Assembly: GCF_038432375.1 (NCBI RefSeq)
Contig: NZ_JBCAUS010000007.1
Span: forward strand, 248,001 to 312,000
Length of the DNA: 64,000 nt
Direction: 5' to 3'
DNA from: Methanococcoides sp. LMO-2
Lineage (GTDB): Archaea; Halobacteriota; Methanosarcinia; Methanosarcinales; Methanosarcinaceae
Part shown: positions 13,381 to 15,616 of the stretch, in pieces
How positions within the stretch are numbered: position 1 is the first letter of the stretch
How the letters are laid out: each line of letters begins with the position of its first letter
Notes under the pieces: generated by a model
Told to the model about the DNA's origin: nothing
The model's input: only the letters and a program-made list of their open reading frames with translations
The model's database searches: none
Position numbers and translations under genes: made by a program

Positions 13381-13506
13381 ATCCTCAGCTACGATAACAG
13401 CAGTAATGATACATCACCAATCCTTATTCTTAATAAATAATTGTGATGAGACTTGATATAGATTTCTCATTTTTCTTATTATGTCTATAAAAATGAAGGA
13501 TTTAAT

Positions 13507-13526
13507 GGCTCTGTAGAAATCCTCAA
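13507..13526 (+). repeat. Left terminal inverted repeat of the IS6-like element
   Basis: This 20-base end pairs with 14607-14626 with one mismatch (A versus G at position 12). It is immediately preceded by one copy of the GATTTAAT target duplication. Confidence 0.85.
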
Positions 13527-13550
13527 CCAAACTAAACATGCAATGTTCTC

Positions 13551-14396
13551 TTAAAAGACATTTTCCTGTTTGAAATGTACCTTACCTCTCTCCAAAAAGA
13601 TTCGTATCAGATGCAGATGCATATCATCGCTACCCACATTTTCATAATACAAGAACATGTTATCATCGTTGGAATGATTGCGAGAGGACAAACTGCCACA
13701 CATAAAATGGGTAAAGGAATGCCCTTGATATAGATCATTAGTTCGCATAATTTCCAGTTCGTGGGTATGACCGCAAAAAACGTATTCAATTTTATGTTTT
13801 TGTACAAAATCGATCAGTGCTGCGGAATTTTTCAGGGGGCACTCGTCAGTACCCAAAATAGAATAATGTGTGATCAACAAAGGCAGGTCATATTCAATCT
13901 GTTCAATTTCTTTTGAAACAGCATTCAGGATCTCTTTTTCAACATATCCATCATCACTGTATAGTTCATTGGTATCGATACTGATAATCAATACTGTTTT
14001 TCCATTTATCGAAATGGACTTGATGAAATTTATATCGGTAAAATAATCCTCAACTCTGGTAATTTCCCGGTCTAAAAAAATGTTTTTCTTGCGTGTTTTT
14101 ATCGTTTCAGAGATAGAGATGATCTCAGAATTGTCAATGTATTTCCGGAAGAATTCATGAGATCGCATATTTCGTTTGTCATGATTACCCCAAGTGGAGA
14201 TGACATTTTTACACTTAATGGCTTTTAGAAAGCGACCCGCTTCAGCGCACTCATTTTCCAGGCCATCTGTCGTATTGTCTCCGGTATTGATGACGATATC
14301 GGCATCAAATGAATTGATTTTCTCCAGCATGATCTGATCGTCTCCATCCCAATGGCGAGGACCGAAATGCAGATCAGAGATATGTAAAATATTCAT
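13551..14396 (-). CDS. Calcineurin-like metallophosphoesterase (transposon passenger)
   Basis: The 281-residue protein has the class motifs in order: Asp8 and His10 in SDLHFG, TGDNTTD near residue 37, GNHDKR near residue 92, a HYS motif near residue 180 and GHTHE near residue 212. It lacks a signal peptide and is likely a cytoplasmic phosphodiesterase or phosphatase acting on nucleotides or nucleic acid; the substrate is unknown. It is the sole gene inside the inverted-repeat element and appears more AT-rich than its neighbours, consistent with transfer. About 210 bases of AT-rich sequence separate its start from the right end of the element. Confidence 0.85.
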   Translation of the reverse strand: MNILHISDLHFGPRHWDGDDQIMLEKINSFDADIVINTGDNTTDGLENECAEAGRFLKAIKCKNVISTWGNHDKRNMRSHEFFRKYIDNSEIISISETIKTRKKNIFLDREITRVEDYFTDINFIKSISINGKTVLIISIDTNELYSDDGYVEKEILNAVSKEIEQIEYDLPLLITHYSILGTDECPLKNSAALIDFVQKHKIEYVFCGHTHELEIMRTNDLYQGHSFTHFMCGSLSSRNHSNDDNMFLYYENVGSDDMHLHLIRIFLERGKVHFKQENVF

Positions 14397-14606
14397 GTAG
14401 TCCTCCTTGTTATAATTGCTTTAAATATAGAATAATAAAAAGATAATCTATTCCTTTATGTTAATCATGTTCGCATAGAGTAAAACATGATTGCTTAATC
14501 AGCAATCAGATAAATATAATAATTGAGCCGATTTCAAAACTCCATTTTCATTCTATTCCGGCACAACATGAAACATGCAGTATCTAATAGGTCTTTAAAC
14601 ACTACA

Positions 14607-14626
14607 TTGAGGATCTCTACAGAGCC
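14607..14626 (-). repeat. Right terminal inverted repeat of the IS6-like element
   Basis: This is the inverted copy of 13507-13526 (19 of 20 bases). It is followed directly by the second GATTTAAT copy. Confidence 0.85.
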
Positions 14627-14671
14627 GATTTAATCTCAATATAGAAAATCAATAGAAATGTAAAACGAAAA

Positions 14672-14705
14672 AGTCCGCTTGAGCAGAGCAAAAAGGACGC
14701 GGACT
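14672..14705 (-). terminator. Hairpin downstream of tRNA-Pro
   Basis: AGTCCGC (14672-14678) and GCGGACT (14699-14705) form a 7-bp stem just 3' of the tRNA gene on its strand. It may help end or process the tRNA transcript. Confidence 0.35.
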
Positions 14706-14728
14706 GCCGAGTCGGAATTTGGATTTGA

Positions 14729-14803
14729 TGGGGCCGCTGAGATTTGAACTCAAGTCGCAAGACCCCCAGCCTTGCAGGATGGACCAGGCTACCCTACGGC
14801 CCC
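14729..14803 (-). tRNA. tRNA-Pro (GGG anticodon)
   Basis: The 75-base minus-strand sequence folds as a cloverleaf: acceptor GGGGCCG pairs with CGGCCCC, discriminator A. The D arm contains AGCCTGGT. The anticodon arm CAAGG-CTGGGGG-TCTTG gives anticodon GGG in a seven-base loop. The T arm is TTGAG-TTCAAAT-CTCAG. CCA is not encoded and there is no intron. It lies about 100 bases from the right end of the IS6-like element. Confidence 0.93.
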
Positions 14804-14884
14804 ACGGGGTCGAACTATAATAAGACTTTTCAGTATATCATTCTTTCTGAAAAAAAAGGTAAAAAAGAGGGTGAAAGTAAAGCT

Positions 14885-15616
14885 TTAAGCTTGCTCCCAC
14901 TGCTCATATGCGTCTACGATCTCCTGTCCTTCAAGGAACACGAGGTCATGCAGACGGGCATATTCCATTGCATCTTCTTTGGAGAGGGCCTTGCCGTTTG
15001 AATCGTCAAGCATCTCACAGACCACCATTGCAGGCGTGACATCAGCCATCTTTGCAATGGCAATTGAGAGTTCGGTCTGTCCCCTGCGCTCATGGACCAG
15101 TCTGTCAGCTGCACGCAGAAGTGCAACGTGTCCGGGTGTACGGAACTCTGAACCGAAGTCCACATTCTTGCCATCGAGGACCTTTTCAGTAATATTTGAG
15201 AGCTCGTTTATGGTCAGTGCCCTGTCATTGTCAGGAATTCCTGTTCTGGTCCTCCTGTGGTTCACCCATATGGAGAATGAGGAGCGGCTGTCGTATGCAA
15301 GGTCTCCACCTCTCTCGACGGTAGTTCCAAGAGCAGGGTAATTTTCAACCTCATCACGGAGGATATCGGAAATGAATGGAAGGCCAAGTTTTTCGGATGA
15401 TTCGCTATCGAGAGCAACACAGATCAGTCCGCCACCGTCCCTGCGCATCCAGCGCACGTCATCAGGAGTGACTGCTCCTGCAGCGATCACAAAATCGGTC
15501 TCTCCTTCACGGCTGTCGGAATCGAAGATGAAGAACATCTCGCCGTTCTGTGCGGCCTTCAATGCTTTGTTGATGTTATCAGTGTAATTTTCATTGGAAC
15601 TCATAGGATCACTCAC
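14885..15616 (-). CDS. ribB: 3,4-dihydroxy-2-butanone 4-phosphate synthase
   Basis: The 243-residue enzyme converts ribulose 5-phosphate to the four-carbon precursor of the riboflavin xylene ring. The acidic metal-binding loop DSREGETDFV near residue 33, RRDGGGLICVAL near residue 58, and a C-terminal GHVALLRAAD block followed by MVVCEML are all family features. Its start overlaps the end of the riboflavin kinase gene by 8 bases, so the two form one operon. Confidence 0.93.
   Translation of the reverse strand: MSDPMSSNENYTDNINKALKAAQNGEMFFIFDSDSREGETDFVIAAGAVTPDDVRWMRRDGGGLICVALDSESSEKLGLPFISDILRDEVENYPALGTTVERGGDLAYDSRSSFSIWVNHRRTRTGIPDNDRALTINELSNITEKVLDGKNVDFGSEFRTPGHVALLRAADRLVHERRGQTELSIAIAKMADVTPAMVVCEMLDDSNGKALSKEDAMEYARLHDLVFLEGQEIVDAYEQWEQA

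Follow-up and report, generated by a model that had tools for sequence, protein, structure and literature searches.

A probable archaeal mobile insertion cassette with IS5-family ends that carries a metallophosphoesterase apparently displaced from a conserved gene cluster

Introduction

MIC231, one of the mobile insertion cassettes (MICs), is mobilised by IS231, an insertion sequence (IS) of the IS4 family. Cassettes of this type lack a transposase and carry a single intact enzyme gene, and they are traced back, as cited in PMC3913671, to Bacillus cereus in 1999. MIC231A1 of this species has the gene of an active D-stereospecific endopeptidase as cargo (PMC3913671; ISsaga, PMC3129680), and the qnrD and qnrS2 mics are later cases (PMC3913671; PMC3129680).

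Here we describe a comparable element in a 64-kb stretch of the genome of Methanococcoides sp. LMO-2, hereafter the window, and compare it with 112 genomes of the Methanosarcinaceae (G numbers) and with bacterial homologues. We consider it likely that this element is a MIC with the displaced phosphatase gene of a metabolic cluster, which was inserted by an IS5 transposase acting in trans and then shared by recombination.

Results

Structure of the cassette

The cassette spans positions 13507-14626 of the window (1120 bp, duplications not counted). The inverted arms at 13507-13526 and 14607-14626, each of 20 nt and complementary at 19 of 20 positions (95%), were detected again as in the original prediction, and so were the two identical copies of the 8-bp target site duplication GATTTAAT, read directly at 13499-13506 and 14627-14634, the first of which is also identical in genome G020. 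Both terminal inverted repeats, GGCTCTGTAGAAATCCTCAA (13507-13526, plus strand) and GGCTCTGTAGAGATCCTCAA (14607-14626, minus strand), were recovered by arm detection and by a scan with the end pattern; with at most three mismatches, this pattern occurs twice in the window against 0.01 expected from shuffles, and both occurrences are the ends of the cassette itself. The IS end proper comprises only the outer ~15-17 bases of the arms. The arm near 14626 shares its inner 'CTCAATG' with what is left of a second IS.

Over its last 41 bp (13507-13547, minus strand), the cassette shows homology with the right end, on the 3' side of the transposase, of an IS5-family element of ~1000 bp, with 90% identity to the right end of the IS at L087 and 93% to that at L067. 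The sole long ORF (13551-14396, minus strand, 281 aa) encodes an intact calcineurin-like metallophosphoesterase (MPE; Pfam PF00149, 63 bits, E 5.9e-17), and a transposase is absent, in agreement with the prediction of a transposase-less element with a complete phosphoesterase as its only gene. The region upstream of the MPE (14397-14492, minus strand) contains an AAGGAGG ribosome-binding-like site and recurs in conserved form at other loci of the genus, as seen in alignments with G017, G022, G023 and G024; it probably carries the MPE's own promoter. Further upstream, at 14524-14612 (minus strand), lies what remains of another IS5-type element, distinct from the first, consisting of C-terminal codons (LNVVFKDLLDTACFMLCRNRMKMEF, with the stop) and the end GAGTTTTGAAATCGGCTC. 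This remnant is fused to the IS tip at position 14626, and in G017 and G021-G023 the MPE has related remnants on its flanks.

Assignment of the ends to the IS5 family

The tips GGCTCTGTAGAAATCC are present in 88 of the 112 Methanosarcinaceae genomes, where many copies bound elements of ~1000 bp with 8-bp duplications, or MITEs of 132 bp. Other copies with different 8-bp duplications had been named as a check on the original prediction and were found, both as full elements and as other cassettes with identical ends; the full ~1000-bp elements at L087, L088, L092 and L094 have the duplications TCAATTCC, CAAATGTT, GATTTTAG and AAAAATAC, respectively. A full element with the cassette ends and an IS6 transposase had also been anticipated. 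Such full elements do exist, but their transposase belongs to the IS5 family (NF033579, E 6e-70; Pfam DDE_Tnp_1). Considering this cognate transposase and the match of the 41-bp cassette end to the IS right end, we conclude that the IS6 label was wrong. It was an understandable guess, given the 8-bp duplications and GG tips, which the IS6 family shares together with a TGT motif in its ends (PMC7986276). However, an 8-bp duplication is also shared by this IS5 group and thus undiagnostic, and the cognate IS differs from IS6 in its transposase, in its length (~1000 bp, not ~800) and in ends that lack the caaa motif. The cassette has the ends and the duplication length common to the elements with IS5 transposases and encodes no transposase itself, so that it belongs to IS5 as a non-autonomous derivative only.

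In the LMO-2 genome, a single broken copy of the IS was found (934 bp, duplication CATTTATT, C7:162718-163651), and no transposase of the cognate type scored above the family cut-off. The 141-aa broken transposase had by itself no Pfam match, the IS5 assignment having come from the full copies. Since the G020 genome has no match to the cognate IS5 transposase either, and LMO-2 has no intact copy, the cassette looks stranded. LMO-2 also has a 132-bp sequence that is probably a MITE of this IS group (L150, G000:C2:66675-66806). In G017, a 4226-bp copy of the IS (L140 178-4403, G017:C1:2144777-2149002; duplication AGTTTTTA) is split by a reverse-transcriptase ORF with the appearance of a group II intron.

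G020 contains a second transposase-less cassette with identical ends (L146 215-724, G020:C1; 510 bp, duplication GATCAAAA), which encloses one ORF of ~80 aa without a Pfam match and resembles two MITE-like ends around an ORF. This 510-bp cassette indicates that the IS group has formed such cassettes more than once.

Insertion site and sharing between species

LMO-2 shares the insertion with G020, which has it at the syntenic site and with the same duplication GATTTAAT. An empty site, which the original prediction had called for, was found in G025, where the orthologous site is short and without the cassette and the target has diverged (GTTGAAAT vs GATTTAAT); G019 also lacks the cassette and has another short sequence at this place. 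A tRNA-like gene adjoins the insertion (window 14734-14804, minus strand); its sequence in G020 is identical, and the aligned relatives conserve it.

The cassettes of LMO-2 and G020 are 98.75% identical, and the tract of high identity extends from ~13400 to 14900, save for a 22-bp indel, while the flanking genes of the two genomes are only ~89-90% identical. The flanking genes of LMO-2 are closer to those of G019 (94-96%), which is nevertheless without the cassette. For the MPE, dS between LMO-2 and G020 is 0.030, whereas the PLP-enzyme gene of the cluster described below reaches 0.127 and ribB 0.527. The high identity of the cassette at one site inside more divergent genes points to recombination between species, and the simplest reading is a single original insertion followed by the probable transfer of a ~1.5-kb tract through homologous recombination, the direction of which between the Methanococcoides lineages we infer.

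Both IS ends around the MPE occur at one insertion site only, so that the movement of the loaded cassette rests on that site and its duplication. No other MPE cassette with both ends was found in the 112 family genomes except the syntenic copy of G020, and no convincing IS ends or inverted repeats surround the MPE in other genera or its bacterial homologues. A resident IS5 whose transposase was replaced in place by the MPE would leave an identical duplication, the MPE never having been cargo. The single site would fit such an origin, and so would the arms, because the 3' side of the MPE keeps 41 bp of the IS right end and the other side only the tip, as after an internal replacement. We nonetheless regard replacement in place as unlikely. 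A plain IS was seen at this place in none of the relatives, G025 having a short empty site and G019 a different short sequence. Besides, in G024 the MPE lies at a third locus, with the same fusion of IS tip and second IS upstream of it, a left end decayed to 15 of 20 positions and no right end; this junction at another locus is therefore older than the insertion at the LMO-2 site. In G017, G021, G022 and G023 (G022 and G023 being Methanococcoides), the MPE occupies yet another locus, syntenic among these four. Remnants of the second IS accompany it there, the N-terminal part upstream in G017 and G023 and the C-terminal part or its end downstream at the locus shared by G017 and G021-G023; the copy in G023 has a weak match to NF033580.

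Based on these observations, we favour insertion of a loaded cassette. Two IS5-family ends with the tips GGCTCTGTAGAAATCC enclose the phosphatase gene and its own upstream region without a transposase, and an IS5-family transposase, probably acting in trans, would have inserted this unit between an ABC-transporter gene and the tRNA-like gene. The ~1.5-kb stretch with the cassette would then have been shared between Methanococcoides lineages via homologous recombination. Its passenger would be the displaced gene of a five-gene cluster that comprises, besides the MPE, genes for an NTP transferase, a CobD/HisC-like PLP enzyme, an ATP-grasp protein and a CDP-alcohol phosphatidyltransferase.

The passenger and its partner gene cluster

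The set of metal-binding motifs of the MPE is complete. The ligand motifs DLH, GD, GNHD, H and GHTH (D7/H9, D39, N70/H71, H176 and H209/H211 in alignment numbering) are invariant in 18 orthologues, except for L/M in the first motif. A dN/dS of about 0.1-0.2 between species indicates purifying selection and, as far as substitution patterns can tell, shows that the MPE is kept functional. In Methanolobus, Bacteroidota and Desulfobacterota, the MPE has close homologues that are 70-90% identical. A sequence search of the PDB with the MPE gave no match; a structure model of modest confidence (mean pLDDT 69.6) retrieved the MPE superfamily in a fold search (purple acid phosphatase, GpdQ and Rv0805, TM 0.5-0.6).

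Clustering of neighbouring ORFs revealed four recurrent neighbours of the MPE. They encode an NTP transferase, a PLP enzyme resembling CobD and HisC, a CDP-alcohol phosphatidyltransferase and an ATP-grasp protein, and the phosphatidyltransferase is most similar to archaetidylserine synthase and PssA. In Bacteroidota, a HAD phosphatase is an additional recurrent partner beside the MPE. The MPE adjoins the cluster in Methanolobus G050, G058 and G059, in G050 and G059 directly upstream of the cluster genes, and in several Bacteroidota and Desulfobacterota it lies beside them or within 5 kb. LMO-2 has the four partner genes without the MPE on another contig, C2 (L117 8892-12952, G000:C2:412891-416951). 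The MPE is probably the fifth gene of this conserved cluster, from which it has been displaced in LMO-2. The cluster is common to Methanosarcinaceae, Bacteroidota and Desulfobacterota and apparently uncharacterised; no published description of the four- or five-gene cluster, or of the MPE cassette, was found in the open literature.

Within the family, the MPE was detected in 10 of the 112 genomes (two with fragments only), all from two genera, and the cluster, scored by its PLP-enzyme gene, in 18, which include all 10 MPE genomes; the hypergeometric probability of this co-occurrence is 8e-10 with phylogeny ignored, the genomes not being independent. The remaining 8 genomes have the cluster and no MPE. 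In one genus of this kind (g5), a DSP-type phosphatase flanks the cluster, which suggests that one phosphatase was replaced by another. DSP/PTP-like phosphatases adjoin the cluster in G006 and G007 (L167, L168), where the MPE is missing.

The restriction of the MPE to two Methanosarcinaceae genera and the cluster genomes without it would also be expected if the MPE were a housekeeping or neutral gene, the cassette a passive relic and the link to the cluster a coincidental co-inheritance. This we hold to be improbable, given that the neighbours are the same in archaea, in Bacteroidota and in Desulfobacterota, with proteins that are 70-90% identical, that the MPE evolves under the constraint described above, and that the four-gene cluster is retained in LMO-2, G017, G020 and G024 although the MPE sits elsewhere.

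It is very improbable that the MPE is a selected enzyme against mobile elements or phages which was spread by the IS: MPE folds do occur in defence genes, the protein matches NCBIfam DS9_1_antiphage (E 6e-9) and PADLOC PDC-S10 (E 2e-12), and its distribution is patchy with similar proteins across phyla, but the DS9_1 match reaches 35.3 bits against a curated cut-off of 420 and covers only shared motifs, the PADLOC match is N-terminal only, relatives are lacking in the phage, plasmid and viral collections, and the neighbours are metabolic, with the metabolic cluster in every family genome that has the MPE. The original prediction had proposed a nuclease or phosphatase directed against mobile DNA. 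We do not retain this role, since the MPE is found together with a metabolic cluster, often at one locus, and the defence-model matches are generic; the NCBIfam, PADLOC, phage, plasmid and viral searches gave nothing specific for it.

Considering the gene content, the product of the cluster is probably a CDP-activated amino-alcohol head group, in whose synthesis the MPE would act as a phosphatase or phosphodiesterase; the CobD-like protein makes amino alcohols derived from phosphoserine or phosphothreonine candidate substrates. Going further, we raise as a tentative idea, which may well prove wrong, that the cluster represents an undescribed Kennedy-type route to amino-alcohol (e.g., ethanolamine- or threoninol-like) head groups of phospholipids or glycans in methanogens and marine bacteria, and that different IS5-type elements have captured and moved its phosphatase gene on two or more occasions, once in the LMO-2 lineage and once in that of G017 and G021-G023. 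If true, IS cassettes would repeatedly remove a pathway gene from its operon.

Comparison with known systems

The cluster resembles CDP-head-group pathways, among them the alternative inositol-lipid clusters of Bacteroidetes (PMC9246714), in combining an NTP transferase, a CDP-alcohol transferase and a phosphatase. It differs in the addition of the CobD/HisC-like PLP enzyme and the ATP-grasp protein, and in having the MPE as phosphatase in place of a HAD hydrolase. The Type A glycan cluster of C. difficile (PMC10714395), where CDP-activated amino-acid phosphates are likewise invoked, was considered and kept as an analogy only, cd0243 being a putative methyltransferase.

The closest mobile elements include the IS5-family elements of ~1000 bp and the 132-bp MITEs of the Methanosarcinaceae, with the ends GGCTCTGTAGAAATCCT, which share the tips, the 8-bp duplications and the right-end sequence with the cassette but have a transposase or nothing as cargo, whereas the cassette carries the MPE. 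They also include the MICs. Like MIC231 and the qnrD and qnrS2 mics, the MPE cassette is bracketed by IS inverted repeats and a target site duplication, lacks a transposase and has an intact passenger with its own expression signals, and an orthologous empty site exists. The description of the element as unusual was thus overstated, MICs with intact enzyme cargo having been known since 1999 according to the account in PMC3913671. On the other hand, the MICs in the cited papers are bacterial, whereas the MPE cassette is archaeal, with IS5-family ends and 8-bp duplications; its cargo is a gene of a metabolic cluster, and its partner IS has decayed in the LMO-2 genome. A cognate IS, a relative's vacant site and a tract of high identity come together in this archaeal case, in which a single metabolic gene, still under selection, would have been packaged in IS ends, moved off its operon and passed between species, and the passenger points to an apparently uncharacterised cluster whose product is probably a membrane-lipid or glycan head group. 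Overall, the MPE cassette is probably a MIC, and as such a new archaeal case of IS5 type and not a new class.
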